The notes under the pieces were generated by a model. The model had not been told where the DNA came from. It searched no databases and worked only from the letters and a program-made list of their open reading frames with translations. The translations under genes and the position numbers were made by a program. A stretch of DNA of 64,000 bases from Novosphingobium kaempferiae (GTDB taxonomy: Bacteria; Pseudomonadota; Alphaproteobacteria; Sphingomonadales; Sphingomonadaceae), in assembly GCF_021227995.1 (NCBI RefSeq), contig NZ_CP089301.1:682001-746000 (forward strand), written 5' to 3'. Below, in pieces: positions 47,944 to 64,000 of this stretch; position 1 is the first letter of the stretch; every line of letters begins with the position of its first letter.

Positions 47944-50526
47944 ATGGGGAACTTCAAAGCAAGGCTCTTGATATCTGCAATAGGTTTGGCGGTGGTCATG
48001 GGAGCACCGGCCTGCGCCGAGGAGGATCGCCAGGAATATCATCTGCCTGCGCAGGATCTCGGCACCGCACTGCGCGCAGTTGGTCGCACGTCGAACCGAG
48101 AGATAATGTTTCAGGTCGAGACTGTCGAAGGGAAACAAAGCCCTGCCCTGGATGGCACTTACAGCCCGGACGAAGCGATCGCCATTCTTCTTCGCGGTTC
48201 TGGTCTCATGGTTTCACAGCGCGGAGCTACCATCCTTATTCAAACCGGATTTCCGCCCGCGCCAGCTCAGGCAAGTGATGCACAGGACACTATTCTGGTG
48301 ACTGGTACCCGCATCCGCGGAGCTCCTTCGACATCGCCGATAACCACCATAAGCCGAGAGGACGCAGAGTCCCGCGGCCAGATCGATCTGGGGCAAATTG
48401 TCCGGGACCTGCCCCAGAACTTTGCTGGTGGCCAGAACCCGACCATTGCAGGGCCGGGACAGGGCGGAACGCAGAACACGACGGGCTCGTCCGCGATCAA
48501 TCTGCGCGGGCTTGGGCCGGATGCCTCACTGACGCTGGTCAACGGCCACCGGCTGGCTTTCGATGCGGTATATCAGGGCGTCGATATTTCCGCGATCCCG
48601 CTTGCCGCGATCGAGCGCGTCGATGTTACGGCAGACGGCGCATCCGCTTTGTATGGTTCCGACGCGGTTGGCGGCGTTGCCAATGTGATCCTGCGCAGAC
48701 GGGTAAAAGGCGTGATTACGTCGGCAACCCTTGGGGCGGCCACTGCGGGCGGGGCTGTGACCCGGCAGTTCGATCTTGTAGCGGGGCCAAGCTGGTCGTC
48801 GGGCAGTTTCATGGCGGCCGCGAACTACCGGCAGGTTAGTGAAATTGTCGGGCGGCATCGCTCCTACACAAGCCGACTGTCACCGGATGGAACACTCGTA
48901 GCGGGACAGAAGCAGTTCAGCATTGTAGTGGCTGGCTATCAGAATTTGACGGACCGCCTCACGCTTGAGATGGACGGCAACTACCTGCACCGTTCCCTGC
49001 CGCAGTGCCTCACGGTTACCGTGGTTGCCCCGAACAGCTGCTACGAAAATGGCAGCGTCGTCTCCTCGGTCGTCGACAGCTGGTCGTTCTCGCCTACCTT
49101 GCGACTGGACCTTGGATCCGATTGGCTCGCACGGCTTGCAGGTACGTACAGCCGCAGCAAGACGTCCATCACCACCCGTAACATTGTCGGCGCGGAGGAA
49201 ACGGCGGTTTACAGGCCGAACTACGACAACGATCTGAAATCGGTGGAATTGGGTCTGGAAGGTCCCCTGTTCCACCTTCCCGGCGGTGAAGCACGCCTAG
49301 CGGTCGGTGCCGGCTACCGCGGAAGCAGGCTGGATTACGATGTACGCAGTTACGTGAACGGCGCGGAGAGCCCGATCGGCGTCTTCAAGCAGACAAGCAA
49401 CGTCGGGTTTGCTTACGGCGAGCTGTTCCTTCCGTTTGTCTCGCCGCAGACGTCGTTGCCCTTGATCAATACCCTTCAATTTGTTGGGGCGATCCGTTTC
49501 GAGGATCACGAGGGTATCGATCGTGTCACGACCCCCAAAATAGGTCTCGTATACTCTCCGACGCAGGGCATTGAGATCAAAGCCAATTGGGGTAAGTCGT
49601 TCAAGGCACCAACCCTCTTCCAACTGGGTCAGGCGAGCAATGCCCAACTCGTCACCGCCGCCATGTACACGCCGGCGCCGCCAAGTTCCCTACCGGTTCT
49701 GTATCTGTTTGGGGGCAACCCCAACCTGGCACCGGAGCGAGCGACGACATGGAACATCTCCGGTGCCGTCGCGCCCGCTTTGCTCGAGGGTCTCAAGGCG
49801 GAAGTGAGTTACTTCAAGATAAAATACCGTGGCAGGGTCGCCGAGCCACTGCTCAATTCCTTGCAGGCGTTCCGCCCCGTATATGCCGATTACGTCCAGC
49901 TCAACCCAAGTGCGGACGAGGTTCTTTCAGCGATCGAGGGCGTTACAGGCGTCTTCCAGAACCTGACAGATGGCGAATTTGACCCCGGCGCGGTGTCCGC
50001 GATAGTGCGCGACAACCTGCAGAACGTGTCTTTGCAATCATCGCGCGGTGTCGATGTCGCGGTGAGCTACGATCACCATTTCGCGCAGAACAGCCGTCTG
50101 TCGGTGAAAGGCTCGGCCAGCTATATCGACAGTAAGCGGAAAGTGACGGCTACTTTGCCCGTTGTTCCGCAGTCGGGTGTGATTTTCACCCCGCCGCACT
50201 GGCGCGCACGAATGACGGCAAGCTGGGAGCGCGACAACGTCACAGCCACGGTGATTGGCAATTATGTCGGCGGAACGACCGATAACCGCTACAATCCCAC
50301 GGTCAGGGTCGGATCATTCACCACGCTCGATGCCGCGGCGTCCATCCGCAGCGTGGCACAGCGCGGAATGCTGGCCAACTTGCAGTGGAGGGTGGTAGTC
50401 CAGAACCTTCTGGATGCCAAGCCGGCCGTGATCCGAACGAGCCTGCCATCGCTTCCGCCGTTCGATTCACTCAACCAGTCAATGTTGGGCCGCGTCGTCA
50501 CGATTACTCTGATGAAGGCCTGGTGA
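47944..50526 (+). CDS. TonB-dependent receptor/transducer with STN domain (lasso-peptide receptor candidate)
   Basis: An 860-residue receptor. The signal peptide (MGNFKARLLISAIGLAVVMG) is followed by an N-terminal STN signalling domain at ~30-100 (EYHLPAQDLGTALRAVGRTSNREIMFQ...LLRGSGL). A TonB box (DTILVTGTRIRG), a plug with VDVTADGASALYGSDAVGGVANVILRR and a barrel follow. An STN domain means it contacts FecR in the periplasm, so ligand binding switches on the sigma factor. Between FecR and the isopeptidase, its ligand is most likely the lasso peptide made by the opposite arm (inference). AGGGAGC precedes ATG 47944; the stop is 1 bp from the isopeptidase start. Confidence 0.9.
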   Translation: MGNFKARLLISAIGLAVVMGAPACAEEDRQEYHLPAQDLGTALRAVGRTSNREIMFQVETVEGKQSPALDGTYSPDEAIAILLRGSGLMVSQRGATILIQTGFPPAPAQASDAQDTILVTGTRIRGAPSTSPITTISREDAESRGQIDLGQIVRDLPQNFAGGQNPTIAGPGQGGTQNTTGSSAINLRGLGPDASLTLVNGHRLAFDAVYQGVDISAIPLAAIERVDVTADGASALYGSDAVGGVANVILRRRVKGVITSATLGAATAGGAVTRQFDLVAGPSWSSGSFMAAANYRQVSEIVGRHRSYTSRLSPDGTLVAGQKQFSIVVAGYQNLTDRLTLEMDGNYLHRSLPQCLTVTVVAPNSCYENGSVVSSVVDSWSFSPTLRLDLGSDWLARLAGTYSRSKTSITTRNIVGAEETAVYRPNYDNDLKSVELGLEGPLFHLPGGEARLAVGAGYRGSRLDYDVRSYVNGAESPIGVFKQTSNVGFAYGELFLPFVSPQTSLPLINTLQFVGAIRFEDHEGIDRVTTPKIGLVYSPTQGIEIKANWGKSFKAPTLFQLGQASNAQLVTAAMYTPAPPSSLPVLYLFGGNPNLAPERATTWNISGAVAPALLEGLKAEVSYFKIKYRGRVAEPLLNSLQAFRPVYADYVQLNPSADEVLSAIEGVTGVFQNLTDGEFDPGAVSAIVRDNLQNVSLQSSRGVDVAVSYDHHFAQNSRLSVKGSASYIDSKRKVTATLPVVPQSGVIFTPPHWRARMTASWERDNVTATVIGNYVGGTTDNRYNPTVRVGSFTTLDAAASIRSVAQRGMLANLQWRVVVQNLLDAKPAVIRTSLPSLPPFDSLNQSMLGRVVTITLMKAW

Positions 50527-50527
50527 T

Positions 50528-52675
50528 ATGGCCTGCTTATCTCTCCTTAACGGCCTGGCGGCAACCGTCTGTGTGGGAGTATCCACCCCAGCCATAGCGG
50601 CAACGCCGTGCGAAGGTCTTCTGCTTACTCAAGCGAAAGCTGATCGAACGGAGCCAGTCACCGAGGAGACGCTGGTGGGCCTGCGGGATATCGGTCCAAT
50701 CTATCGCGCTGACGCGACGCGTCCCATTCTTGCGGTGTCTCCCGATGGTAAGGTGGCCGCTTTCGAGCTGCATCAAGGAAACTTCTTAACGAACGGATAC
50801 TGCTCTGCGGTGGTTGTAATCCCAGTTCGAAAGGGCGCGAAGCCCATCATCGTCGATTTCAGCGACGAATTGATCTTGGACCGCTCGCCTGCCTTCAATT
50901 GGGCCGCATTCGAAACAGGTGTTTCCGCCCCCGTCACGCCCCATTGGGCTCCCGATGGACGTTCGCTCGCCTATTTGAAACGCGTTCGCGGATCGACGCA
51001 GGTATGGGTCGCCAACAGCGTCACCGGCGACCCTCGCCAACTCACGCATTCCAAAGCGGATGTGGAGGATCTGCGGATTACGGACGATGGCCGGACGGTC
51101 CTGTACGCGGCGAGGTCTGATCTTTCCGATCAAATCGCTGCGATTGATCAGGAAGGTCGCAGGGGGTGGCGAGCCGATGCCCGGCTTCTGCCTCTTCGTG
51201 GGCCGCGACCGCAGACGCCGACGGTACCACGGCGCTACTTCGCCATTGACGTGGCGAACGGTACAATGCGTGAGGCGTCTGAAGCGGAAGTCGCTCAATT
51301 CGCCCGGCCGACAGGCGTCCCGTCCGAGGCGACGGCTTTTGCGGCCAGTCGCGGGCAATTGGCGTGGATAGAGCCGCAGAGCGGCTCGCGCATTCCCGCT
51401 CCGCATGACCTTATCGTACAATCGGCGAAAGGAGAACGGAAGGTCTGTTCCGCAGCGGTCTGTGGCGCCGGCCCGCTCTCCCGCTTATGGTGGACTGCGG
51501 ACGGCGGCCGGCTGCGTTTCACAAGGCGAGAAGGATGGGCGGACAGCCTGACGGGCGTTTATGAGTGGGCACCCGAGATGAAGGCGCCTCGTCGTCTTCT
51601 TTTGACGCCCGATGCCTTGACCGATTGCGCCCCGCTGGGGCACGACCTTTTGTGCCTGCGCGAAAGCTCAACTCAGCCGCGACGGCTCGTTACCCTCGGC
51701 CTGGCTAACGATCGCCCTCGGCTGATCTTCGATCCGAACATCGAATTTTCAGCGCTCGCGCTGGGGCGTGTCGAGCGCCTTCAATGGCGTAATCCGTCTG
51801 GCGTCGCCTTCTATGGGGATTTGGTCTATCCGGTCGGCTACCCCGGCAACGGTCGGCGTCCTCTTGTCGTCGTACAGTACCGTTCAAAGGGGTTCCTGCG
51901 TGGCGGCACCGGCGACGAAGTGGCGATTCAGGCGCTGGCAAACCGCGGATACTTCGTACTGGTTGCGGATATTCGCGATGCCGAGGCCATAGTGGGTGAT
52001 CAAGAAAGTGCGGCCGCGCTGCAAAAGGCCTATGAGCATGAAATGGCCGGAGTAAGGGGCGTCCTCGCGGGCATCGAAAGCCAGGTGACTGCACTGATCG
52101 AACGGGGCCTGGTGGACAGGGATCGTATCGGCATCAGCGGGCTGAGTGCCGGATCCCTCACTGTACAATTCGCTGCAAAGCATAGCCTGCTCTTCGCGGC
52201 CGGCTCTCTCAGTGGCTGTTGCCTCGATCCCATGCAGGATGCGTTCCTGGGGCCGATGATCGCGGGGCAATACCATGAGGTCGGATGGCCGAAGATGGCT
52301 GATGGCGATGCCGCAATCTGGAAGCAGGTATCCCTCTGGAGTGAACCGCAAAAGGTGAGATTTCCGTTGCTCTTTCAAGCTGCGGACAACGAGTATCTGG
52401 CAGCAGCGCCGAGTTACACTGCACTGCGCCAGGCCGGAGTGCCCACTGACCTTTATATCTTCCCCGACGAATTCCACCTGAAGCGTCAACCTGCCCATCA
52501 GCTTTCCGTTTACAAACGCAACAGGGCCTGGTTCGATTTCTGGCTGAGAGGGATCTTGCCCGCCGATGAAACAGAGCGCGAGGAAGCGCTGCGATGGCAG
52601 GAAATGCGCAAGGTATGGAAGCCTTCAGTTCCCGGGAAGCGCGCGGCCGCAGCCGAAAGGTCCGAAGGGCATTAA
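50528..52675 (+). CDS. Lasso-peptide isopeptidase (AtxE2-like, prolyl-oligopeptidase fold)
   Basis: A 715-residue serine hydrolase with a signal peptide (MACLSLLNGLAATVCVGVST). It has a beta-propeller half (APDGRSLAYLKRVRGSTQVWV) and an alpha/beta-hydrolase half. The nucleophile is Ser540 in ISGLSAGSLT, a Glu (Glu622, in AADNEYL) stands where most relatives have Asp, and His650 is in DEFHLK. The Ser-Glu and Glu-His spacings (82 and 28) nearly equal those I recall for AtxE2 (S527/E610/H638). AtxE-type enzymes open the macrolactam ring of a cognate lasso peptide. It is coupled to the receptor gene. Confidence 0.88.
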   Translation: MACLSLLNGLAATVCVGVSTPAIAATPCEGLLLTQAKADRTEPVTEETLVGLRDIGPIYRADATRPILAVSPDGKVAAFELHQGNFLTNGYCSAVVVIPVRKGAKPIIVDFSDELILDRSPAFNWAAFETGVSAPVTPHWAPDGRSLAYLKRVRGSTQVWVANSVTGDPRQLTHSKADVEDLRITDDGRTVLYAARSDLSDQIAAIDQEGRRGWRADARLLPLRGPRPQTPTVPRRYFAIDVANGTMREASEAEVAQFARPTGVPSEATAFAASRGQLAWIEPQSGSRIPAPHDLIVQSAKGERKVCSAAVCGAGPLSRLWWTADGGRLRFTRREGWADSLTGVYEWAPEMKAPRRLLLTPDALTDCAPLGHDLLCLRESSTQPRRLVTLGLANDRPRLIFDPNIEFSALALGRVERLQWRNPSGVAFYGDLVYPVGYPGNGRRPLVVVQYRSKGFLRGGTGDEVAIQALANRGYFVLVADIRDAEAIVGDQESAAALQKAYEHEMAGVRGVLAGIESQVTALIERGLVDRDRIGISGLSAGSLTVQFAAKHSLLFAAGSLSGCCLDPMQDAFLGPMIAGQYHEVGWPKMADGDAAIWKQVSLWSEPQKVRFPLLFQAADNEYLAAAPSYTALRQAGVPTDLYIFPDEFHLKRQPAHQLSVYKRNRAWFDFWLRGILPADETEREEALRWQEMRKVWKPSVPGKRAAAAERSEGH

Positions 52676-52713: not shown

Positions 52714-54462
52714 TCACGACCCCACGCTGCCCCATCGCCTGACCCACGCCTCGGTATCGAGCAACGCCATCAATCGGGGGCGATGGGCGTCTCCAACATC
52801 GCCTTCACGCTTGAAGAGGCCCTCAAGTTGCACGCGATCAACTATTCCCTTTCTTGCAAGCTCACCATCGATCAGTCTTTCGGCGATCTCGGACCGGCGC
52901 TGCTCTATGAAATTGGCCACGAAACCTTCGGGTGTTCCCTTACCCTGACGCGCAGCAACTTTAGGGGGCAGTGCTGATGCGAACGCCCTGCGAGCTACCG
53001 CACGATCGACGCCGCCCTCGCACACCTCCCAGGACGGAATGCCGAGGCACATTTCGACAATCGGCTGCGACAGCAGAGGGCTGATCATTGGGACTGCAAG
53101 ACTTTTGTCACGGTGCTCGATATGGTTCATGGCCCGCAGGAGAAGTGTCACGTGCCCGATCCTCCCTGGTGGCGTATCGCTTGGATGATCGAACCAGGGG
53201 TGTTCGACCGGTTGGTCTTTCTGTGCGGCAAGGAAGTCGGTATGGAGCAGACCGGGATCTGCTTTCCAACCCATCCCTTTTCCACGAGCGCGGTATACGC
53301 GCATCGCCTCATCAAGCACTTGCCACGGGCTGGAGCCGGTCAGCGCGCAAACGTCCTTGAAAGTGGAAAGTGTGCCGCGCGACCAACCTTCCTTGCTGTA
53401 ACGATCGATTACCGGTCGCGCCGAATGCGTGAGATAGAACACGTTGTCACCCCCGGCGCCTACGAAAAAGCCGTCGGCCTCGCAGAGGCTTACCGCCTCC
53501 CGGACAGCCTGGTTATAAGCCATTTCGTGGAGCTTGCCGCAGGGCAGCGGCACGCCTTCTGCAACCGAGACATCCATGTCGATGGCTTCCACCGCATGGA
53601 AGGCTTCGATCAGATTCGCGTTGAAAGCGCACGCCACCTCGCGGGCGTAAATGCGCTCGTCTCCGGCCGGATCCGAGGTACTTAACGTGACGCACGAGAT
53701 TGATGGCGACGCCCTGGCAAGGCAGGCAGCGACAATCGAGGAATCCAATCCTCCGGAGAGCCCGACGAGGGGACGCGCGAAACCGGAAGCCCATGCGCTA
53801 TGAACGCTTCGCACGGCGCGGCCTAATCGATCGCTGGCCGGCTCATTGCCCGACCAGGGATCGATATGGTCCCAGGGACTCCACACACGTCGCGCTGCGG
53901 GTAACGGCGCGGCGACATCGAGGGAACAACCCGCCAGCAATTGGGCAACCCCATGGATTGCGGTCTTCTCAAAAGGTAGATGCGGCAATAACAGGGACCT
54001 GCCGACCACGTCCCAATCGACTGCGGCAACAGTAACACCTGCGGTCACGAGCAGTGTGAAATCGGAAGCGAACGCTGTTCCGAGTTTTCCCTGGGCATAA
54101 TAGCAGGAAAGCCCCCCCGATGGGTCACGCAGAACGGTGATGCCCGTGGCCGACCTGAACGCAGCGACATAACTTCCCCAGAAACGCTCCACGAGATGCC
54201 GGCCGGAAGTGAGACTTGCGCGCCGACTGTCATCGTCATTGAGGCTGCGGACCTGCTCGGGTGGACCGTGGCGCGCAAAGAGATTGCCCACGATGATGCC
54301 TCCCGCGTCGCTCGCGACGATCGCGTCGGCTGGTCCGTCTGCCAGGAGAACGAACTCGGGTGTGTGATGGACCACCCTCAAGCCAATGCATGCCGCCAGC
54401 TGCTCGCTTTGGTGCGGGCACATGGCTTCCTCGACATTCGGAACGATCAGTAGGTAGCGCAT
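52714..54462 (-). CDS. Lasso-peptide macrolactam synthetase (asparagine-synthetase-like C protein)
   Basis: A 582-residue AsnB homologue. The N-terminal half is glutaminase-like but the protein starts MRYLLIV, lacking the Cys2 nucleophile, as in lasso C proteins. The ATP-pyrophosphatase motif SGGLDSS is at residues 236-242. FVGAGGDNVFY and MNHIEHRDKSLAVPMISPLLSQPIVEMCLGIP follow. It adenylates the side chain of core Asp8 and joins it to Gly1. ATG 54462 directly abuts the B stop, so translation is probably coupled. It ends 38 bp from the convergent isopeptidase. Confidence 0.93.
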   Translation of the reverse strand: MRYLLIVPNVEEAMCPHQSEQLAACIGLRVVHHTPEFVLLADGPADAIVASDAGGIIVGNLFARHGPPEQVRSLNDDDSRRASLTSGRHLVERFWGSYVAAFRSATGITVLRDPSGGLSCYYAQGKLGTAFASDFTLLVTAGVTVAAVDWDVVGRSLLLPHLPFEKTAIHGVAQLLAGCSLDVAAPLPAARRVWSPWDHIDPWSGNEPASDRLGRAVRSVHSAWASGFARPLVGLSGGLDSSIVAACLARASPSISCVTLSTSDPAGDERIYAREVACAFNANLIEAFHAVEAIDMDVSVAEGVPLPCGKLHEMAYNQAVREAVSLCEADGFFVGAGGDNVFYLTHSARPVIDRYSKEGWSRGTLSTFKDVCALTGSSPWQVLDEAMRVYRARGKGMGWKADPGLLHTDFLAAQKDQPVEHPWFDHPSDTPPGRIGHVTLLLRAMNHIEHRDKSLAVPMISPLLSQPIVEMCLGIPSWEVCEGGVDRAVARRAFASALPPKVAARQGKGTPEGFVANFIEQRRSEIAERLIDGELARKGIVDRVQLEGLFKREGDVGDAHRPRLMALLDTEAWVRRWGSVGS

Positions 54463-55140
54463 TCAACACACCGTCAGGATAGGAGCGAACATCTGGACGC
54501 GATCCGGTCTGTCATTCAGGACGAGGCCTTCGTCCTGCACCCAGCAATGCGCGGCGAAGGGGTTTGGCTGGATGCCGATGACCAGGGTAGAGGCGAGGCC
54601 GTGTTTGCGGCACGATGCCGCAAGCGCGAGCGATCGCGCCAGGCACCGATTGTTGCTCCCGAGCAGCATGTCCGCCCTGGCGAAGGCCCGAACAATAGCG
54701 TCGCGATCCGCAAGCCTGGTCCGGGGGAGAACCTGACCGGCGTTAGATCCCAGGCCTTTCAATACGGCGAGCAGCCGTTCAAGCGGCCAGGTCTTCACGC
54801 GCCTACTCCACACCAGCTGGGTGGTGAGAGCTGCGAAAACGAGCCAGCTCGAGACATTCCCCGATGCGGGATCGAGTGCAGTGTCCGCGAGCGCGATCCT
54901 GGCAGATGTCATCGCCATGGGCGGCTGGTCCTGATCGCTCACCGCCAGGACGTCACGATCCTTCAATTCAAGCAGCCGCTCGTGGTCCAACCCGATGAGC
55001 GCTGCCCCGAGTGCCCACCGTCGAAAGGCCGGAGCCTGTTCATGTGTCAGCGCCCGATAACGGCCGCCGCCCGGGTCCAGGAGGATGACACGCTCACCGG
55101 CGATGCAGAAGTGCATGCCCTCGCGAAGTCTAAAGCCCAT
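54463..55140 (-). CDS. Lasso-peptide leader-binding and protease protein (fused B1-B2)
   Basis: A 225-residue protein. Residues ~1-75 form a PqqD-like RRE (GERVILLDPGGGRYRALTHEQAPAFRRW) that binds the precursor leader. The C-terminal half is a transglutaminase-like protease (Cys166 in NNRCLARS, His198 in FAAHCWVQ, Asp210 in LNDRPD). It removes the leader after the Lys preceding core Gly1. ATG 55140 was chosen because AAGAGG is just upstream and MGFRLREG starts the RRE; ATG 55194 would extend through the intergenic hairpin. Fusion of B1 and B2 is normal in proteobacteria. Confidence 0.93.
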   Translation of the reverse strand: MGFRLREGMHFCIAGERVILLDPGGGRYRALTHEQAPAFRRWALGAALIGLDHERLLELKDRDVLAVSDQDQPPMAMTSARIALADTALDPASGNVSSWLVFAALTTQLVWSRRVKTWPLERLLAVLKGLGSNAGQVLPRTRLADRDAIVRAFARADMLLGSNNRCLARSLALAASCRKHGLASTLVIGIQPNPFAAHCWVQDEGLVLNDRPDRVQMFAPILTVC

Positions 55141-55163
55141 CGGGAAACCTCTTGGGGTCAGGA

Positions 55164-55191
55164 GGCACGCGGGCGGCGAAGCCCGCGTGCC
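55164..55191. promoter_or_regulatory. Hairpin between lasso precursor and B gene
   Basis: A perfect 11-bp inverted repeat, GGCACGCGGGC at 55164-55174 and its complement at 55181-55191, with a 6-base loop. It lies 10 bp downstream of the precursor stop and 24 bp before the B start, on the same transcript. No T-run follows. Such A-B hairpins in lasso operons are thought to raise the level of precursor mRNA over enzyme mRNA (family knowledge). Confidence 0.85.
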
Positions 55192-55200
55192 CATTGCTCG

Positions 55201-55335
55201 TCAGTCGTCGGAGATCCCCGTCTGAGTCCGCTGAGGACCGAGGGTGTCGAGACCGACCGGCCCGGGGCCCTTGGTTTCCTCGGTTACCATGCCCAGATCG
55301 ACGAGTTCAGCCTCCAGATGGTCTTGACGTTCCAT
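55201..55335 (-). CDS. Lasso-peptide precursor, sphingonodin-like
   Basis: A 44-residue peptide too short for default gene calling. The leader (22 residues) starts MERQDHLEAELVDLGM and ends EETK, with the Thr at -2 that lasso leaders need. The core has 22 residues: ring part GPGPVGLD (Gly1 to Asp8), then a tail running through TLGPQRTQ and ending TGISDD. The Gly1-Asp8 ring and the SDD end match sphingonodins as I recall them. AAGGAGG sits 5 bp before ATG 55335. B, with its own RRE, follows after a hairpin, and C next. The steric-lock residues cannot be assigned by eye. No similar second precursor was seen. Confidence 0.92.
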   Translation of the reverse strand: MERQDHLEAELVDLGMVTEETKGPGPVGLDTLGPQRTQTGISDD

Positions 55336-55491
55336 ATTAGCCTCCTTCTCGAATTCAGCCGCAAGATCGCAGCCGCAGTAAGGATAGATGGCGGAAGAAG
55401 AACGAGGCGAGCTTATAAGGTCTCGCGTTGGCGAATGGGAGGTATCGCAGCAGCTGGAACGTATTGCCTGGAGAAATGAAGTCGCGCAGGA

Positions 55492-56112
55492 TCAAAGACT
55501 TCCGCCTTGATTTGCGATCATGGCGATCTTGCCTGCGCGACGGATACGGCGTCGATGATATGCCCGCAGGAGCGAAAGCCGGTCCGGACTGGAGCCGAAA
55601 ATCGCATTCGCAACACTTGCGAGTTCCTCGTCGATTTGTATCAGCGCCTCATCTTCGAATATCCGGGTTGGGGTAAGTCGATCATTAGCGCTTGCGAGAG
55701 CGCGGCCATGTTCCTTGTTCTGCGCGAAATCTGCGAGTGACCGGAAGACTGCCGTGGCAGCAGCCGCTACCGGTTGTCCGGGACCGATCGCCAGGTCCGG
55801 CATAGCCATTACGGGGTCTGACTGTGAGAAATCCTTGAGAACCAATCGCACGAGTTGACCGTGCCATACATACAGATCGCGCAGCGCCGTCGCGGTGAAA
55901 TACGGCACGCGATATCCGCCCGCTTTTACCATTTCCACCATCCGCTCACCGACCAGCCGGTGGGCGGCGTCGCGCAGCGGAGAGATGGACATGCCGTACT
56001 CCAGCGCGATCTGCCGCTCGATGATGGGAGATCCAGGCTTAAAGCGACCGGCAAGAAGGTCGGACTTAAGCAGCTTATAGGCGCGTTCCGCAGCGACAGG
56101 TTCAGGAGCCAT
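55492..56112 (-). CDS. GntR/FadR-type transcriptional regulator upstream of the lasso precursor
   Basis: A 206-residue regulator. The winged helix is AAERAYKLLKSDLLAGRFKPGSPIIERQIALEYGMSISPLRDAAHRLVGERMVEMV. The remainder (FTATALRDLYVWHGQLVRLVLKDFS...) resembles the helical FCD effector domain of FadR-like proteins but is short. ATG 56112 (MAPEPVAAERAY) gives normal family length; the longer frame overlaps the XRE gene. It is 156 bp upstream of the precursor and 14 bp after the XRE gene on the same strand. It probably controls lasso synthesis (inference). Confidence 0.85.
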   Translation of the reverse strand: MAPEPVAAERAYKLLKSDLLAGRFKPGSPIIERQIALEYGMSISPLRDAAHRLVGERMVEMVKAGGYRVPYFTATALRDLYVWHGQLVRLVLKDFSQSDPVMAMPDLAIGPGQPVAAAATAVFRSLADFAQNKEHGRALASANDRLTPTRIFEDEALIQIDEELASVANAIFGSSPDRLSLLRAYHRRRIRRAGKIAMIANQGGSL

Positions 56113-56126
56113 TGGCCTTGCTCGGG

Positions 56127-56537
56127 TCAGCGCCGGCGCATCGCGTCGCGCGCGCTGCGCGTTGAATGGCGTACTGCTGCCGATTCCTGATGGCGGGCGA
56201 CCGCTTCGAGCAGTTCGCATTGAAGGTCCCACAAATCATCCTGCATCAGCAGTTCGCGCGGTACGTCCATTTCATGCTCCACTGCGATCAAGGGAAGGAA
56301 AAGGTGAATAGTGGTCATCTGCAGCGCGCGAGCGCAGCGGATATGATCATCAAGCGCGGAAGCCGGGAGCCCCCCTTCGATTTCGCGAACCCATCTATCG
56401 CTGCGGCCGATTTTCATCGCCAGTTCGCGTTGCGAGATATGATCGCGGCGTCGGCGCCGCTCGATCAACTTTCCTGAAATGAGTTTGATTGCGTTCAGTA
56501 TGTCACCGTCACTTGCTTGCGTTGCGTGCAGCGTCAT
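56127..56537 (-). CDS. XRE-family helix-turn-helix regulator
   Basis: A 136-residue protein with a Cro/C1-type HTH, RRDHISQRELAMKIGRSDRWVREIEGGLPASALDDHIRCARALQM, and a C-terminal helical tail rich in charged residues. It heads the minus-strand run XRE-GntR-precursor-B-C. Its effector and targets are unknown. Such a gene could also belong to the adjacent mobile element rather than the lasso operon. Confidence 0.82.
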   Translation of the reverse strand: MTLHATQASDGDILNAIKLISGKLIERRRRRDHISQRELAMKIGRSDRWVREIEGGLPASALDDHIRCARALQMTTIHLFLPLIAVEHEMDVPRELLMQDDLWDLQCELLEAVARHQESAAVRHSTRSARDAMRRR

Positions 56538-56689: not shown

Positions 56690-57115
56690 CTATCTCATTT
56701 CGCGACCTGGTGAAGCTCTACTCGAGCTCAATGTTTGCAAAAGGTCGCGGTCGGTCGCGGTTTCCATCCGACCCAGCGCTGCGAGAAAGATCTTCCAGAC
56801 GGCTGGCGCTGGATGAACCAGTCCCGATTTCTCGACTGTCACTGCAATATCTTGGACCATCACCGCCAGCGCAGGAGATGTGCCAACGAACCGAACCAGG
56901 CGTCCGCCATGGCGCGCGATTTCAGGGGACAGCAATTCCTGCGCCGCGATTTCCGCCGTACTTTGATGAAGCAAGGTGACGGCGACGAGAAGCGTTGTGC
57001 CATACGGCAGAAAGTCACCCACCGCATGGCACAGGCGGCAATGACATTGCAGGAAAAGACGCACTCCGGACGGAGAAAGTTGAAGTTTGTAAGCGCGTGA
57101 TCGGACCTTCACCAC
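56690..57115 (-). CDS. Possible GFA/Mss4-like small protein, weak
   Basis: A 141-residue frame that may be real. LFLQCHCRLCHAVGDFLPYGTTLL resembles the CxCRxC zinc block of glutathione-dependent formaldehyde-activating (GFA) enzymes, and LVRFVGTSPALAVMVQDIAVTVEKSGL continues plausibly. No second CxxC is seen, so zinc binding would be incomplete, and no strong Shine-Dalgarno stands at the start. It may be a degenerate copy. Plus-strand frames over the same bases look like shadows. Confidence 0.35.
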   Translation of the reverse strand: MVKVRSRAYKLQLSPSGVRLFLQCHCRLCHAVGDFLPYGTTLLVAVTLLHQSTAEIAAQELLSPEIARHGGRLVRFVGTSPALAVMVQDIAVTVEKSGLVHPAPAVWKIFLAALGRMETATDRDLLQTLSSSRASPGREMR

Positions 57116-57450
57116 CGCCTCTCTCCATTTGCCAATTCTGGGGAAACTTCCCGAATCACGGTCTGCAGGCGCGATGCTTCAGCAAGTTTAAGCCAATGGT
57201 CATCCGCCACGAATAGAAGAAGATTTCGGACCGGCAATTCCGCAATTCGGAAGACAAGTGCCGACTTGCGGCAGCCCATTGCCCCTTCAGGGAATTCTAC
57301 TGCCCCAATGGTTGCGGCTTCAACCTGTTCCCGCCACCCCCAAGATCACATCGAAGCGGACGCTACAGACAGCGGATGCGCCACGTAGCGTTCGAACGGT
57401 GCCTTCAACCTTGCGGTTCAAAGCCAGACACATCGAGGAACCTTACGCCC
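57116..57450. other. Intergenic region between lasso-side genes and the transfer region
   Basis: This ~335-bp stretch has no supported gene. It lies between a minus-strand gene and the plus-strand transfer genes, so it probably holds the transfer-operon promoter. No oriT-like repeat array or clear operator was recognised. Confidence 0.4.
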
Positions 57451-58251
57451 ATGTCCGCAGGATTCCTGTATCACACCGCCCTGATTGCAGCACTGGCGGC
57501 CACCGCCCTTCCCGCCCGTGAGTTGCGAGCGCAAGACGTCGCCGCAACCCAAGACAGTCCAGGTCCAGAAATGGAAAAGGCAGTGGATGCGGCGCAACGC
57601 CAGCTTCGACAAACCTTTACCAATCTGGCGTTCGCGGATTTCGCTCCCGCGCCGGTAAAGGGGCCGATCTTCCAGGCCGTCGCGGGTGGAAGGATGCTTT
57701 ATTTCGCTCCTGAGAGCGAGCATCTCCTGTTCGCGGCGGTCTACGACAAGAACGGTGTCAACCTGACCGCTCTTGCGCAGGATGCCAGCGCACGGAAGCG
57801 CCTCGCCGCGATAGACCCGCAAAGTGCTCTTGTCATCGGGCCCCGGGATGCGCCAAAGGTCATCGAGTTCACCGATCCGGATTGCCCGTATTGCCGTGCG
57901 CTCGACCGGTTCTGGGCAGCGAAGGCGGCCGAAGGAAAGGTGGTGCAGCGCCACATCTACTTTATGAGCGCGATTCATCCTCAGGCGGCCGCGAAAGCGG
58001 AACACATCCTGTGTTCACCCGATCCGGTGGTTGCCTTCAGTGCGCTCTACCAGGGCGTTGAACCGACCGAGCTGCTCAAGTGTCCAGCGGGCGCCAGAAA
58101 AGTCACCGAGGACGCCAACACCGGCCGAAAGGTCGGGGTCTCCGGGACGCCCACGCTCTTCATCGAGGGACGGCAGATCAGCGGTTTCCAGCAAGGGGAG
58201 CTCGAGGAGTACCTCGCAGGGCACGCCAGCGCTTCCCTTGCCGGGCCGTGA
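57451..58251 (+). CDS. DsbC-like thiol:disulfide interchange protein of the conjugation locus
   Basis: A 266-residue periplasmic protein with a signal peptide (MSAGFLYHTALIAALAATAL). A dimerisation region precedes the thioredoxin fold, with DPDCPYCRALDRFW (CxxC) and cis-proline GVSGTPTLFIEG. DsbC-type proteins isomerise disulfides; F-type transfer loci carry one for pilus and channel proteins rich in Cys. ATG 57451 was chosen because the signal peptide begins there and GAGGAA precedes it. It opens the tra gene run. Confidence 0.88.
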   Translation: MSAGFLYHTALIAALAATALPARELRAQDVAATQDSPGPEMEKAVDAAQRQLRQTFTNLAFADFAPAPVKGPIFQAVAGGRMLYFAPESEHLLFAAVYDKNGVNLTALAQDASARKRLAAIDPQSALVIGPRDAPKVIEFTDPDCPYCRALDRFWAAKAAEGKVVQRHIYFMSAIHPQAAAKAEHILCSPDPVVAFSALYQGVEPTELLKCPAGARKVTEDANTGRKVGVSGTPTLFIEGRQISGFQQGELEEYLAGHASASLAGP

Positions 58252-58449
58252 GCCGATCGCTGCCGGATCTGGCAGCCTGCGGGCCCGCTGGCACGCACTT
58301 CCGCCGTCAATAACGAAGCTGCCGTCGAGTGCGTGCCTTCAGGGGCCGTCGAGCGCACTTGCCGGCCGGGAACGGCCAGCGCCCTGATCGGTCGATGGGG
58401 CCAGATACCCGAAAAGCCGCGACGGCTCCGCATAAGAAGGGAACTCGTT

Positions 58450-58767
58450 ATGGTGACTTTGCTTCGAGGAAAGGCGTTCCGCACGGCAGATGCGGCGATC
58501 CTTTTCATTCTGGCCGCGTTCGCCGGTGCCGGCATGGCCCATGCGTTCGCGGCACCCTCGGTGGGCGATCTCGGCTACGACATCTACGACATCGTCGTGA
58601 ACCAGGGGGTGAAGGGGCCGCTGGGCTTCGTGGGCGGCGTCGCTGCCTTCCTGTTTGGCGTCTCGCGCCTCTTTTCCAACATCATGATCGGCATCCCCAC
58701 GATCGTCGCGGCCGTGTGTCTGATCAAGGCCGATTCCATTCTTCAGACTTTCGGCCTCGTTGTCTGA
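58450..58767 (+). CDS. traA: F-type conjugative pilin TraA
   Basis: A 105-residue propilin. The leader includes a hydrophobic stretch (AAILFILAAFAGAGMAHAFA), with likely cleavage near AHAFA-AP. Two pilin helices follow: GVKGPLGFVGGVAAFLFGVSRLF and IMIGIPTIVAAVCLIKADSIL. ATG 58450 is the start; the longer frame has an uncharacteristic extension. It precedes TraL, E, K, B, V and C in the standard F order. Confidence 0.82.
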   Translation: MVTLLRGKAFRTADAAILFILAAFAGAGMAHAFAAPSVGDLGYDIYDIVVNQGVKGPLGFVGGVAAFLFGVSRLFSNIMIGIPTIVAAVCLIKADSILQTFGLVV

Positions 58768-58932: not shown

Positions 58933-59199
58933 GTGGATGAACGCCTGCCCCAGTTCCTGCACAGGCCGGTCCAGATACTCTGGTTCGACAGTCAGGAATT
59001 CATCGTCGTCATGGCCACGATATTCGTCGCGGTCATCGTTGGCGGGACCATCGGATGGCTCCTCATCGGCGTCCTTCTCCTGTTCATTCCCTGGAAGCGC
59101 AGCAAGCCGCGCGGGTTCATCCCGCATCTAGCCTGGCGCTGGGGTCTTGCCCGCTTCCGCAACTATCCGGGTCCGACGCAGACCCGCTTCTACGAATAG
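58933..59199 (+). CDS. traL: Conjugal transfer protein TraL
   Basis: An 88-residue membrane protein of the F-type secretion system, with FLHRPVQILWFDSQEFIVV then two hydrophobic stretches (MATIFVAVIVGGTIGWLLIGVLLLFIPWKRSKPRG). TraL spans the inner membrane and takes part in pilus assembly. GTG 58933 follows GGGAGAAGGAC; GTG 58885 would add 16 residues. The shorter form has the normal family length. Confidence 0.9.
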   Translation: MDERLPQFLHRPVQILWFDSQEFIVVMATIFVAVIVGGTIGWLLIGVLLLFIPWKRSKPRGFIPHLAWRWGLARFRNYPGPTQTRFYE

Positions 59200-59210
59200 G
59201 AAAGTTGGCG

Positions 59211-59840
59211 ATGTTCCTGCGACGAAAGCCGGCAAGTGACCTCGTCGGCGATATCCGGCCCACCTGGCACCTCCACCGCTACCTGCAGGGCTCGGCCAAC
59301 CTCTTCGAAGAGAACCGCCTGCTCAAGATCGCGGTCGCAGGTCTATTCGGCATCACGGCCGTCCTCGGAGCGCTGATCTACACCTCGAACCAGAATGCCC
59401 GCACGGTCATCGTGCCGTTCGGCGCTGATGGCGACTTGTTCATTACCGGCAATCGACCTTCGGAAGGCTATCTGCGCTCGATCACGTTCAACGTCGTGGG
59501 CCTTGCTGGCACTTATTCCGCCTATTCGGCCGACCGTCAGTTCCAGGAGTTGCTGCGGATCGTTCACCCTAGCGCCTATAACGAGGTGCGCGACAGCCTG
59601 AACCGGCTGCTCGATGAACTGCGCAGCAACCCTACCCTATCGATCGCGACATACATCCGTTCCGATCAGGCCGTGACCCGATCGGGAGCCGAAATCCTCG
59701 TACCTATCGAAAAGGTCCGGGTGATCGGCGGCGTCATCCGCAAATTCCGGGGCAATCTGCGCATTCGCTACGCGCTCGAGAACGGCCGCTTCTGGCTGAC
59801 GGCACTTCAGGAGGAAAATTTCGATGCAGATGCGCGCTAG
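59211..59840 (+). CDS. traE: Conjugal transfer protein TraE
   Basis: A 209-residue VirB8-like protein. It has a short cytoplasmic start, a membrane helix near residue 40-58 (IAVAGLFGITAVLGALIYT) and a periplasmic NTF2-like domain. It is a scaffold of the transfer channel. Upstream longer frames are rejected: ATG 59211 follows AAAGTTGGCG and matches family length. It overlaps traK by 17 bp. Confidence 0.9.
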   Translation: MFLRRKPASDLVGDIRPTWHLHRYLQGSANLFEENRLLKIAVAGLFGITAVLGALIYTSNQNARTVIVPFGADGDLFITGNRPSEGYLRSITFNVVGLAGTYSAYSADRQFQELLRIVHPSAYNEVRDSLNRLLDELRSNPTLSIATYIRSDQAVTRSGAEILVPIEKVRVIGGVIRKFRGNLRIRYALENGRFWLTALQEENFDADAR

Positions 59841-60618
59841 ATCGACGGGCTTTCAACGGCTGCGGCACGCCTGTGTTGCCGGCTCACTCCTGGCGAACCT
59901 GGCGAGCGGCGCCCCCGCTATCGGTCAGGTCGTCATGGCCTTGCCTGACCAGACGAGCCGTATCCAGCTTTCCAACCGCGACATCAACCACGTCGTTTGC
60001 GTGGGCGGGGAGATCGAGGAGGTCAAGTTCTCGGCCGAGAAAGGCCTCGCGGTCGAACGCGGCGGTTCGGATGCCTGGATCAAGTTCCTGGTGCTCGAGA
60101 CCGATGACGCGTCTTTCAAGACCCGTACTTATGTCACCAGCCCGGCAGAGTTCTTCGTGTCGTGCAACGGGGCAATCTATCCGCTCTATGCCGAGCCGTC
60201 GGATATTCCCGCGCAGACGGTCAATCTGGTCCCGGGTCAATTGCAGCGCGCGCGTGCCAATGACGTGCTGATGGGCGCGATGTCCGCAGAGGAACGCGCC
60301 GTTGGCGTCGCGCTTGCCGTCCTTCAGGACCGCATCCCGGCCTCCTTTTCCGAAGCAGCGCCAAGGCGCGATAGCCTCATTCTTCCCGGTCTGGCATACG
60401 CCGCGCTCACCGAGCGCCGCCGACTGGAGGTGGAAGGCGCCGGAATTTCCGTAAGCGAATATCTCGTACGCGCCTCAGCCGCCACGGTGCTCGACGAACG
60501 CGACTTTCTGGATGTGGCACTCGGCGACGACATCTTCGCCGTCACACTCGATCGCCTAAGCCTGCAACCTGGCGACGTCGCGCGGCTCATCGTCGTGCGC
60601 CGGAGTGTCCGGTCATGA
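59824..60618 (+). CDS. traK: Conjugal transfer protein TraK
   Basis: A 264-residue exported protein, VirB9-like and secretin-related. It has an N-terminal signal (GFQRLRHACVAGSLLANLAS), then beta-rich IQLSNRDINHVVCVGGEIEEVKFS and TYVTSPAEFFVSCNGAIYPLYAEP. With TraB and TraV it builds the outer-membrane core complex. Translation is coupled to traE and, by a 4-bp overlap, to traB. Confidence 0.9.
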   Translation: MQMRARSTGFQRLRHACVAGSLLANLASGAPAIGQVVMALPDQTSRIQLSNRDINHVVCVGGEIEEVKFSAEKGLAVERGGSDAWIKFLVLETDDASFKTRTYVTSPAEFFVSCNGAIYPLYAEPSDIPAQTVNLVPGQLQRARANDVLMGAMSAEERAVGVALAVLQDRIPASFSEAAPRRDSLILPGLAYAALTERRRLEVEGAGISVSEYLVRASAATVLDERDFLDVALGDDIFAVTLDRLSLQPGDVARLIVVRRSVRS

Positions 60619-61940
60619 CGCAACCGACGGGAAAGCCGAACTCCGGGCCGGCCACGGCGTCGACGCAGGAGCCCGTCTCGAGCGTGGGCGGACCAGGCAC
60701 CTCGCCCGGCACGGCTGCTTTCGAAGGCCGCTCCCCGCTCCTCGATATGAAGGCGCGATGGAGCCGGTTGTCATCGGATCACAGACTGCGCGTCAAACAG
60801 CTCGGCGTCGTCTCGGCGATCGCGCTGGTGGGCATGGGTCTCTACACCGCCAGCAGAAGCGGCAAGGAGGCTGCGCCCACGCCGGCCCAGGCTACCAACC
60901 TCGACATGGGGGCGGGGCTTCGCGGCGACAGCCTGGAACTGAAGCTGCGCGGCGATCTGCAGAAGGTTCTGGACGGTCAGACGCTGCTGGGCGACAGGGT
61001 CAGTGCGATCGAGGAAGGCAAGATCATGCCTCGCGGCGGCAGCGACGGCGCATCGAGCGCAGCAGACGGCGACCTTCCGCCCGCACTGCCCGGCGATATC
61101 CCGGCTTTTCCGCCGGCTCCCGCCGACGCAGCGATGAGCCAGGACGAAATCCCGGCGCCGCCGATTGCGCCAACGGCTCCATCCGCGCCGCCAGCTCCCC
61201 CCAGCGAGCGACAGGTCGGCGCCATTGGCGCGGCGGTCAGCACGGGTAGCCCGGCGGGAGGAGCAGGCGGCACAGCCACGTCAAAAAAAGGCAAGCGGAC
61301 GATCTATTTGCCTCCTGGTTTCATGAAGGCCCGGCTCCTGACCGGGGTCGACGCACTGGCGAGCCGGGACGCGACCAGTAATCCCGAGCCGATCATTGCC
61401 CGCGTTCAGGCGCCGGCGGTCCTGCCCAACGACGTGAAGGCAAACCTCGCCGGATGCTTTGTCATCGGCAACGCGACCGGCAGCCTCGCGAAGGAACGGG
61501 TGGAAGTCCAGCTGGTCTCGCTGTCCTGCGTGGATTTCGACGAGCATGCCGTCGTCGACCAGGCGATAAAGGGCTTCTTCGTCGACGGGGATGGCAAGAA
61601 GGGCCTTTCCGGCAAAGTCGTGACACGCGCCGGAGCAACACTTGCCCGCTCGTTCCTAGCCGGCACCATCTCCGGGATCTCGCAAACCGTCGAAGGCACG
61701 TTCGGCAACCTTTCGACTTCGGCGCTCGGCAGCGTGCGTTCGCTCGATGCCGGTGATGCCGCAAAAGCGGGAATAGCCGGCGGCCTGTCGCGCTCGTCCG
61801 ACAAGCTCACCGACTTCTATCTCGATCTCGCGAGGCAGGCAGGTCCGGTCGTCGAGGTAGGCGCGGCCAAGGACGTCGTCGTCGTCGTCCAGGAGGGGCT
61901 TGCGCTGGAAATCAAACCGTCGGTCGAGGGCAAATTCTGA
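60615..61940 (+). CDS. traB: Conjugal transfer protein TraB
   Basis: A 441-residue VirB10-like protein. One inner-membrane helix (~71-88, LGVVSAIALVGMGLYTAS) is followed by a proline-rich periplasmic spacer (PALPGDIPAFPPAPADAA). The C-terminal TrbI domain has AVLPNDVKANLAGCFVIGNATGSLAKERVEVQL. It spans both membranes and couples energy to the channel. Its stop overlaps the next frame (TGATG). Confidence 0.92.
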   Translation: MTQPTGKPNSGPATASTQEPVSSVGGPGTSPGTAAFEGRSPLLDMKARWSRLSSDHRLRVKQLGVVSAIALVGMGLYTASRSGKEAAPTPAQATNLDMGAGLRGDSLELKLRGDLQKVLDGQTLLGDRVSAIEEGKIMPRGGSDGASSAADGDLPPALPGDIPAFPPAPADAAMSQDEIPAPPIAPTAPSAPPAPPSERQVGAIGAAVSTGSPAGGAGGTATSKKGKRTIYLPPGFMKARLLTGVDALASRDATSNPEPIIARVQAPAVLPNDVKANLAGCFVIGNATGSLAKERVEVQLVSLSCVDFDEHAVVDQAIKGFFVDGDGKKGLSGKVVTRAGATLARSFLAGTISGISQTVEGTFGNLSTSALGSVRSLDAGDAAKAGIAGGLSRSSDKLTDFYLDLARQAGPVVEVGAAKDVVVVVQEGLALEIKPSVEGKF

Positions 61941-61972
61941 TGCCGCGGCTATTTCGCCAAGGAGTATCTGTC

Positions 61973-62605
61973 ATGGCAATTCCTTCGTGCCGCAGCGTGC
62001 TGCTGCCGCTGTTCAGTGTTAGCCTGGTGCACTTTGTCGGAGGATGCGCGAGCCTCGGCTCGCTGATGTCTCCCTATCCCGAGACGTTCTCCTGCAAGAA
62101 TGACGATCACGGCCAGTGCATTCATCCGGACAAGGCCTATGCCGATGCCGTTGCCGACATCCCGTCGAAATCGGATCCTGCCGTAACCAACGCCCGCGCC
62201 GCTGCTCGCGGGACGACATCCGGTTCGACCGGGCGTTCACGCCGGACCGGCCGCACTGATGCGTTCAGCAACTACAAGGACAGTGTCTATCGCGAACTGC
62301 GTAGTCTTATCGAGACGCCAGCCACGCCGATGCTGCAACCTGCCCGGACGGTTCGTACGCTTATTCTTCCCTACGCCGACAGGCAGCGGCCCGACCGGCT
62401 CTACATGCCGCGCTATGTCTACTCGGTGCTCGACAAACCCGCCTGGGTTATCGGCGATACCCTCGTGGAAACGCCGGGTTATCGCGCGGCAGCGCCTGTG
62501 CTCGGGCAGACCAGTGAGCGAGAAGGCAGTGAGGGTTCCATTACTCGCCCCGGCCCGATGGGTCCTTCCCCGGTTGCCCAGCCCGCGAAGGAGGAACGGC
62601 CATGA
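61973..62605 (+). CDS. traV: Conjugal transfer lipoprotein TraV
   Basis: A 210-residue outer-membrane lipoprotein: signal ending in FVGG-C (lipobox-type), then ASLGSLMSPYPETFSCKNDDHGQC. ATG 61973 was chosen because AAGGAG lies 8 bp upstream and the signal peptide starts there; ATG 61940 would overlap the traB stop and add 11 residues. TraV anchors the core complex in the outer membrane. Confidence 0.88.
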   Translation: MAIPSCRSVLLPLFSVSLVHFVGGCASLGSLMSPYPETFSCKNDDHGQCIHPDKAYADAVADIPSKSDPAVTNARAAARGTTSGSTGRSRRTGRTDAFSNYKDSVYRELRSLIETPATPMLQPARTVRTLILPYADRQRPDRLYMPRYVYSVLDKPAWVIGDTLVETPGYRAAAPVLGQTSEREGSEGSITRPGPMGPSPVAQPAKEERP

Positions 62606-64000
62606 GCGGCGCGAGCAACAGCAGCGCGCTTACTTACTCGCGGCTGCGCAGGGCGGTGCGCCGGGACAGCTTCTCGGACTATCTGCCGCTCGTCGCGTGG
62701 GAGGCCCAAACCGAGGCGTTCCTGTGCATCGATGACAGCTGGGGGCACGCGTGGGAACTGACACCTGCGGCCTACCTTTTCTCGCATGTAGAGGGCGCGC
62801 TGCTGGGCCTCTTCAACATCCAGTTTCCGGACGGCACCGTACTGCAGCTTCATACGTTCGCCGATCCGCTCATCGACGATGCGCTCGATGCCTTTCTCGA
62901 CATGAAGACCCGCGACGACCCGCTGATACAGGCCTCCGCGCGTCACGCCCATGCCTATCTCAGCGCTGGCAGGCATGGGCTGGAGGCGCTTCATGGCATT
63001 CCGGTGCGCAATTTCCGTACGCTCCTGTCGATCAAGACAAGGCGGCCGCTCGGTGAGGACCTGAGACGCCAGGTCGAAGAACAACTCTCCAAGCTCGGGA
63101 TCCGCAGGCTGCCCCCCGCGGAGATGGTTTCCTTTTATCGGCGCATCTTCAATGGGGTCGCCGCGCAGGCACCGGGCGTCTTCACCGACGGCACCACGAC
63201 AGGGGCTCCCCCGATCGCCCGGCAGATCATCGATGCCGGGCCGGATCTTGTCTTCGAGGGCGCGGAAGTGTTCCTGGGCAATCAGGTCGCGCGATGCCTG
63301 ACCCCCAAGGCGCCGGCCCGGCGTATCACGGCCGAGCGGGCCAACCGCCTGATGGGCGGCATGCGGGGGGCCTCGGAAGACAGCGACCAGATCGGCGGAC
63401 CGTTTCTCTATACCCTGAATGTCCTTTTCGACCATTCGCAATTCGAGATTCATAAGCGGGCGCAGATCCTGTCGGCACAGAAGGCTGCGGGCAGTTTCGC
63501 GGTCGAGGTCGGCAAGCAGATCGAGGAAATCGGCTGGATCCTCGATGAGGCGGGCAACAGCAAGTTCGTTCGGGTCATTCCCACGCTTTGGGTGTTCGGC
63601 CGCGACCGTGCCCATGCCCGGGACCTCGCCGCGCGGGCCAAGCGGCTCTGGGAAGGAGAGCCCCTGCCCTTCTCGATGCAGGAAGAGAGCTATCTCAATC
63701 CAACGCTTCTGGTCCTGAGCCTGCCCTTCGGTCTCTATCCCGATCGCACGACCCTGCGGTTGCTGGAAAGGGATTTTCGTATGCCGGTCAAGGCTGCGGT
63801 GCTGATGGCCCCCATCCAGACCGACTTTCGCGGGGGCGGGCGCCCTGCCCTGCTTTACACCGGCCGCAAGGGGCAGCTGATCACGCTCGATCTGTTCGAT
63901 CCGCGCATCAACAATTACAATTTCATCGTTTCGGCCGAAAGCGGGGCGGGCAAGAGCTTCCTCCTCAACAACCTGTGCCAGCAGTATTATGCCTCGGGTG
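62602..64000 (+). CDS. traC: Conjugal transfer ATPase TraC, C-terminal part cut by window edge
   Basis: The first 466 codons of a VirB4-like ATPase are visible; family members have ~850. The N-terminal region (SFSDYLPLVAWEAQTEAFLCIDDSWGHAWEL) is typical. Walker A, SAESGAGKSF, is near residue 445-452; Walker B lies beyond the edge. TraC drives pilus assembly and DNA transfer. AAGGAGGAACGGCC precedes ATG 62602, which overlaps the traV stop by 4 bp. Confidence 0.92.
   Translation, partial: MSGASNSSALTYSRLRRAVRRDSFSDYLPLVAWEAQTEAFLCIDDSWGHAWELTPAAYLFSHVEGALLGLFNIQFPDGTVLQLHTFADPLIDDALDAFLDMKTRDDPLIQASARHAHAYLSAGRHGLEALHGIPVRNFRTLLSIKTRRPLGEDLRRQVEEQLSKLGIRRLPPAEMVSFYRRIFNGVAAQAPGVFTDGTTTGAPPIARQIIDAGPDLVFEGAEVFLGNQVARCLTPKAPARRITAERANRLMGGMRGASEDSDQIGGPFLYTLNVLFDHSQFEIHKRAQILSAQKAAGSFAVEVGKQIEEIGWILDEAGNSKFVRVIPTLWVFGRDRAHARDLAARAKRLWEGEPLPFSMQEESYLNPTLLVLSLPFGLYPDRTTLRLLERDFRMPVKAAVLMAPIQTDFRGGGRPALLYTGRKGQLITLDLFDPRINNYNFIVSAESGAGKSFLLNNLCQQYYASG

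Follow-up and report, generated by a model that had tools for sequence, protein, structure and literature searches.

What does the short open frame at positions 55201-55335 of this 64,000-nucleotide stretch of Novosphingobium kaempferiae DNA (the window) encode, is its product new, and what is such a gene doing beside genes for conjugation? The original prediction had read the frame as the gene for a lasso peptide precursor. We favor, at a probability of about 0.9, an ordinary and probably working lasso cluster of the benenodin/subterisin family, forming a block that would be a cassette bordering an F-type conjugation operon and exchanged between elements.

The precursor and its predicted product

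Two features mark the precursor gene.

55201..55335, minus strand: gene A for the 44-aa lasso precursor (leader encoded by 55270-55335, core by 55204-55269, stop codon at 55201-55203)
55341..55347, minus strand: Shine-Dalgarno AAGGAGG, 5 bases before the ATG of gene A

A 44-codon frame preceded by AAGGAGG, with a leader ending in T-K and a core that begins GPGPVGLD, had been described, and each of these particulars is present on the minus strand, where translation from the ATG at 55335 gives the 22-residue leader MERQDHLEAELVDLGMVTEETK followed by the core GPGPVGLDTLGPQRTQTGISDD. Asp8 is, as was also claimed, the sole acidic residue at core positions 7-9. The precursor matches over its whole length both the NCBIfam benenodin model NF033522 (45.7 bits, cut-off 33, E 4e-12) and the Pfam subterisin model PF24178 (50.7 bits, cut-off 27, E 2e-13). 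Moreover, T21 (leader -2), G23 (Gly1) and D30 fall on the benenodin/subterisin plan of Thr at -2, Gly1 and Asp/Glu at 7-9, a plan of which our relatives are no independent test because they were chosen by a pattern containing Thr -2, Gly1 and the acidic residue. A scan of the 64 kb for a Shine-Dalgarno sequence, leader motif, T-x-G and acidic residue, devised after gene A had been seen, returned gene A as its sole match; this single match and the two model scores rule out a chance frame. The identity as a lasso precursor, together with the predicted Gly1-Asp8 ring, is therefore supported by the family models, the gene order and the relatives.

The 22-residue core ending in GISDD stands as the encoded sequence, with a computed lasso mass of 2162.060 Da. 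The mature peptide may nevertheless be shorter, 22 residues being an upper limit, because two related products are on record as shortened by four or five residues at the tail: benenodin-1 was isolated without five tail residues (PMC13352647), and a review tabulates sphingonodin II as GMGSGSTDQNGQPKNLIGG (PMC12427821), beyond which its gene on pCHQ1 extends with ISDD. Such trimming would change the product mass (to 1731.890 Da on loss of ISDD, for example, by computation). The likeness of the SDD tail to that of the sphingonodins is real, since the core of sphingonodin II also ends in GISDD, but it is undistinctive: G-[LI]-x-[DE]-[DE] closes 32 of the 55 family cores recognized by pattern (52 different cores), and the final residue is acidic (D or E) in 54 of them. 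Nor is the middle of the core as odd as had been claimed, given that QR is present in 9 of the 55, the window core included (e.g. DTVIQRQLMG).

The comparison with lasso precursor collections proposed in the original prediction gave no identical core among those searched, namely 397 sampled Sphingomonadaceae genomes (best other match E 4e-5), PLSDB plasmids (best 52% identity) and a table of 62 peptides in one review, compared by eye; text searches of the literature with core fragments likewise found none. Within these sets a duplicate of a known core is ruled out, and the product is, as was suspected, probably undescribed. Judged by sequence comparison, the newness of the peptide is at the level of sequence and not of kind, the precursor being typical of the benenodin/subterisin family. 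The closest of 16 chosen cores aligned, with 12 of 22 positions shared, belongs to a second lasso cluster of the same genome near 3.2 Mb (L036, core GPQGGIGDDVLTQPVAGLSDD), in whose examined 16 kb there are no tra matches. That cluster (~3.20 Mb) has its own receptor and isopeptidase, and its leader ends in T-L, not T-K. The precursor has no match in the PDB. In another locus (L160), from a genome of the same genus, a precursor found by eye has the core GPPGDRIEFGVLAQLPGLDRD, which resembles subterisin.

Maturation, uptake and ring-opening genes

The remainder of the lasso cluster lies to the left of gene A in the window.

55163..55192, minus strand: A-B intergenic stem-loop (stem of 12 bp, loop of 6 nt)
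54463..55140, minus strand: B leader peptidase, 225 aa (NF033537 89.6 bits, PF13471 77.1 bits; Cys166/His198/Asp210)
52714..54462, minus strand: C, asparagine-synthetase-like lasso cyclase (PF00733 88.3 bits, above cut-off; SGGLDSS at 236)
50528..52675, plus strand: lasso isopeptidase (NF033523 703.6 bits; AtxE2 5txc E 1e-114; Ser540/Asp620/His650)
47944..50526, plus strand: TonB-dependent receptor with STN signalling domain (PF00593, PF07715, PF07660)
46791..47876, plus strand: FecR-type anti-sigma factor (PF04773)
46216..46794, plus strand: FecI-type ECF sigma factor (PF04542, PF08281)

Family matches and gene order confirm that the B and C maturation genes follow A. B matches NF033537 (B2 leader peptidase) above cut-off, and Cys166, His198 and Asp210 are its presumed catalytic triad. 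Its start is most likely at 55140, the point from which the pCHQ1 and pBSY17_1 B proteins can be aligned with it; an upstream ATG at 55194 sits at the hairpin foot. The N-terminal part of B, the expected place of a leader-binding RRE (B1) domain, has no Pfam or NCBIfam match, comparison of B with solved structures gave no credible match, and a contig scan of genomes with B as query returned one distant locus only. C falls below the cut-offs of two macrolactam-cyclase NCBIfam models and, as query, has no match in viral contigs. By analogy with the family, the 44-residue precursor would be bound through its leader by B, which is predicted to cut after Lys22, and C would activate the Asp8 side chain for linkage to Gly1, so that an 8-residue ring closes around the tail.

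The stem-loop between A and B has a folding energy of -29.7 kcal/mol, with a z of -2.74 relative to dinucleotide shuffles, and the 60-base stretch downstream of A folds at z < -2 in 50 of the 55 precursors (median -3.4), as measured against mononucleotide shuffles, a laxer control, and with eight loci lacking a pattern-found A uncounted. The hairpin would probably yield more message for A than for B and C. One at such a place is already known, its removal for astexin-1 expression being listed in a review table (PMC7549694, accessible part). Perfect inverted repeats (arms 5-9 bases, spacer up to 8) are absent from the 156-base gap between the GntR gene and A, and scans for consensus promoters and terminators gave about the shuffled level.

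FecI, FecR, the TonB receptor and the isopeptidase form a set convergent to A-B-C, which makes a standard sphingomonad lasso cluster; with both an AtxE2-type isopeptidase and a TonB receptor, it is of the isopeptidase type. The isopeptidase matches AtxE2, which acts on astexins, over nearly its full length, and Ser540, Asp620 and His650 align with AtxE2 residues (the 5txe chain has alanine in place of the serine), the catalytic residues being included in the match; the substrate here is putative. Asp620 and His650 are presumed to be catalytic. By analogy, the receptor would import the threaded peptide, possibly signalling through FecR and FecI, and the isopeptidase would open the ring. Ring opening may be periplasmic, because the N-terminus of the isopeptidase resembles an export signal by eye. 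This segment (window 50528-50610) is hydrophobic and signal-like, without a clear positive start. No exporter, ABC exporters included, was recognized among the cluster proteins scanned with family models.

The sphingonodin II cluster of pCHQ1 (Sphingobium indicum UT26S), whose precursor contains the published sphingonodin II sequence, shares both the cluster order and the place beside an F-type tra operon, yet only 10 of 22 core positions are identical to those of the window, and B and C are 32% and 33-35% identical. Sphingocin of Sphingomonas BPH shares the leader end VTEETK, the core start GPG and Asp8, and its cluster has no exporter gene and an adjacent isopeptidase and TonB receptor, according to the accessible text (PMC11006600); 9 of 22 core positions are identical. 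The pBSY17_1 cluster (Sphingobium sp. RAC03) stands closest to the window among tra-linked clusters when the C proteins are placed in a tree, and it shares the full gene order, with identities of 53% for the isopeptidase, 48% for C and 10 of 22 core positions. The benenodin-1 core is identical at only 4 of 22 positions, although the curated benenodin and subterisin models both match the whole window precursor. In the pBSY17_1 record the precursor is without annotation. At locus L039 (6944-7198; NZ_CP016453.1 275186-275440) a hypothetical protein is annotated on the opposite strand over the precursor, which has no PLSDB entry.

Relatives with the same precursor plan, the retained isopeptidase residues, the hairpin and the gene order shared with pCHQ1 all count for a probably working cluster, against which stand the scores of C under curated cyclase cut-offs, the unmatched N-terminal part of B and the possible tail trimming.

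A lasso block beside F-type and trb transfer operons

On its other side, gene A is followed by regulators and then by a conjugation operon.

55492..56112, minus strand: GntR regulator (PF00392; start placed at 56112 from alignment, the longest frame extending to 56232)
56127..56537, minus strand: HTH (XRE-like) regulator (PF13560 21.9 bits, under cut-off 27)
56690..57115, minus strand: unnamed 141-aa protein (no Pfam/NCBIfam match)
57376..58251, plus strand: DsbC-like disulfide isomerase (PF10411; longest frame)
58333..58767, plus strand: small protein at TraA pilin position (conserved part 58501-58767; no Pfam match)
58933..62605, plus strand: TraL, TraE, TraK, TraB, TraV (PF07178, PF05309, PF06586, PF03743, PF09676)
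62602..64000, plus strand: TraC, cut by the window end (PF11130)

The lasso cluster abuts an F-type conjugation operon, which runs divergent from the regulators and continues to TraG beyond the window; the order C<B<(A)<GntR<HTH and then DsbC>TraA>TraL is that of an F-type-linked lasso site. The label of pilin for the protein at the TraA position is presumed from gene order. With the likely GntR start, 14 bases separate the HTH and GntR genes. Invariant residues of the 141-aa family include H25, G39, T41, L42, G71, V77 and G78 in the alignment. Neither border of the mobile region could be located; the nearest integrase matches are at 590.5 and 839.8 kb of the contig. A MOBF-type relaxase lies at contig 646285-647082, about 90 kb to the left of the precursor, and the region could therefore be large.

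The site recurs. Gene order is shared in the pCHQ1 and pBSY17_1 records, and in pHR1a without the 141-aa gene. In PLSDB, matches of at least 87% to the conserved part of the TraA-position protein come from eight sphingomonad records. A match to lasso B lies 3.4-4.5 kb from it in seven of these (the region was examined in six of the seven) and is absent from the eighth, pDC02. The 397 sampled genomes yield 21 strong TraA places (E < 1e-40). At eight of these the benenodin model has a match 2.4-3.4 kb away, with E no higher than 0.001 and with some scores below the model cut-off. About 0.01 such adjacencies would be expected by chance, from 90 precursor places in ~1.4 Gb (genome size estimated), and the eight pairs are not independent because related elements share ancestry. 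At 12 of the 21 places the lasso cluster is absent by tblastn, and one more (L129) is cut by a contig end.

Half of the 28 TraA loci examined bear a lasso cluster. Thirteen, the window included, have B, C, GntR, HTH, DsbC and TraA in order, and in the fourteenth (L069), which ends just behind A, the precursor and 141-aa genes are present while matches to GntR and HTH are lacking. The precursor is present in all 14, by pattern or by eye; precursors missed by the pattern were found by eye in L064, L065, L066 and L069 and, outside the 14, in L160 and L167. The 141-aa gene accompanies 12 of the 14 lasso-bearing loci and one of the 14 others. The HTH gene also neighbors DsbC at 11 of the 14 loci that have no lasso cluster (identity 29-49%) and thus seems to be part of the transfer region. 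L074 ends within C. In L075 (G057:C1 ~2.03 Mb) the C match covers ~400 of 582 residues, and the following 6 kb contain neither an isopeptidase nor a receptor; not every copy is thus kept whole, and this F-linked cluster is perhaps decaying.

Trees of different parts of the site disagree. In the TraC tree (27 loci, with the window row limited to 466 residues and L127, too short, left out) the window falls in with L072-L075, being 93% identical to L073, and three changes are needed to account for lasso presence. In the C tree (55 loci) it groups with L055 and two Sphingopyxis plasmids (100/100), the plasmids being free of tra matches over the 14 kb examined. The C proteins of F-linked loci do not form a single clade in that tree, supported branches forcing at least three changes, and a single lasso lineage at the F-type site is ruled out (AU p 4.3e-9) in a test run after a quick tree had been seen and entering 11 of the 14 loci (L070, a long branch, L069, without C, and L074, with a short C, were left out). 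In a tree of 11 loci, the HTH and 141-aa proteins join the window with L055, L065 and L066 (100/100), whereas the C proteins of those loci do not hold these four together (AU p 0.005); conversely, keeping the regulators of the window and L055 with those of L072-L075 is rejected (AU p 6e-5). Identities between the window and L065 are 80% for FecI, 45% for FecR, 38% for the TonB receptor, 26% for the isopeptidase, 34% for C and 28% for B, and then 51% for GntR, 65% for HTH and 61% for the 141-aa protein; for L055 the corresponding values are 70, 39, 55, 53, 48 and 39%, and 53, 62 and 57%. Unequal rates alone would not explain a block whose middle differs and whose edges agree, although long branches, which may exaggerate the conflicts, and open forks weaken the trees. 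Because the F-linked cyclases are not one clade and the regulator and cyclase trees disagree, the observed gene order and tree conflicts point to a block swapped as a cassette between elements or acquired repeatedly; the exchange itself is what we infer from them. Since L072, L073 and L075 stay together in the TraC, regulator and C trees, some lineages pass the block on together with the element.

A second type of conjugation operon also has lasso neighbors. Seven of 42 other lasso loci, fetched by score and thus non-random, follow the trbI-DUF2274 genes of a trb operon at a distance of 317-360 bases and share its direction, and on plasmid Lpl of Novosphingobium PP1Y the distance is 294 bases, again in the same direction (together L145, L151, L157, L165, L168, L174, L179 and L042). 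In L161, DUF2274 is 7.4 kb from the lasso cluster. One C clade (100/100) takes in eight of the nine trb-associated loci, L161 included, with Lpl apart. The other 35 of the 42 loci, L161 among them, have no transfer operon of either sought kind within 400 bases.

What the peptide may be for

The association of lasso clusters with conjugation genes is one of physical linkage; any role of the peptide in conjugation is hypothetical. No paper on such a link was found in the open-licence literature, a scope that leaves most subscription journals outside. It is possible, at odds we put well below even, that the peptide is a siderophore-like carrier from which the isopeptidase frees cargo. A transposon in spgB of the sister sphingocin cluster abolished growth on phenanthrene, and the paper, in its accessible part, cites the siderophore-like idea; this is, however, a single insertion mutant whose mechanism was not known to its authors (PMC11006600), and no ligand is described in the literature examined.

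Somewhat more doubtful is a role in competition, in which the peptide would harm element-free cells and the isopeptidase protect carriers, thereby favoring the element. Lasso clusters beside two unrelated conjugation systems would fit this proposal, as would the comparison with L065 and L066, in which receptor, isopeptidase and enzymes differ strongly and the outer regulators are similar, as at a self-recognition locus. Antibacterial activity of this family is, however, not reported in the portion of the literature examined, and the absence of a recognizable ABC exporter is a further difficulty, such exporters being the usual immunity of antibacterial lasso peptides.

The STN domain of the receptor, the FecI/FecR pair and the GntR and HTH genes between A and the divergent tra operon raise the thought of a signal, a peptide cue that would adjust transfer or other genes to kin or recipients. 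We consider this unlikely, because the 35 of 42 loci without a transfer neighbor imply that the basic function needs none. Silent cargo, a cluster intact and unexpressed that hitch-hikes on the element, is less likely still: horizontal exchange and the decayed-looking L075 would fit it, but the open frames, aligned catalytic residues and hairpin retained in the window speak against it. A broader and frankly speculative proposal is that, at two kinds of transfer operon unrelated to each other, sphingomonad conjugative elements carry a dedicated, swappable lasso module comprising the peptide and its enzymes together with the receptor and isopeptidase. The peptide might then serve the element by donor-recipient signalling or by handicapping cells without the matching module.

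For the preferred reading, that of an ordinary and probably working cluster in an exchanged cassette, the new core gives a predictable target mass. More unusual than the peptide itself is a lasso cluster lying beside conjugation genes as an apparently exchangeable block, an arrangement that a number of relatives share. The function of isopeptidase-type lasso peptides is unsettled, and the recurrent F-type and trb neighbors, together with the signs that the block is exchanged, suggest a testable answer.
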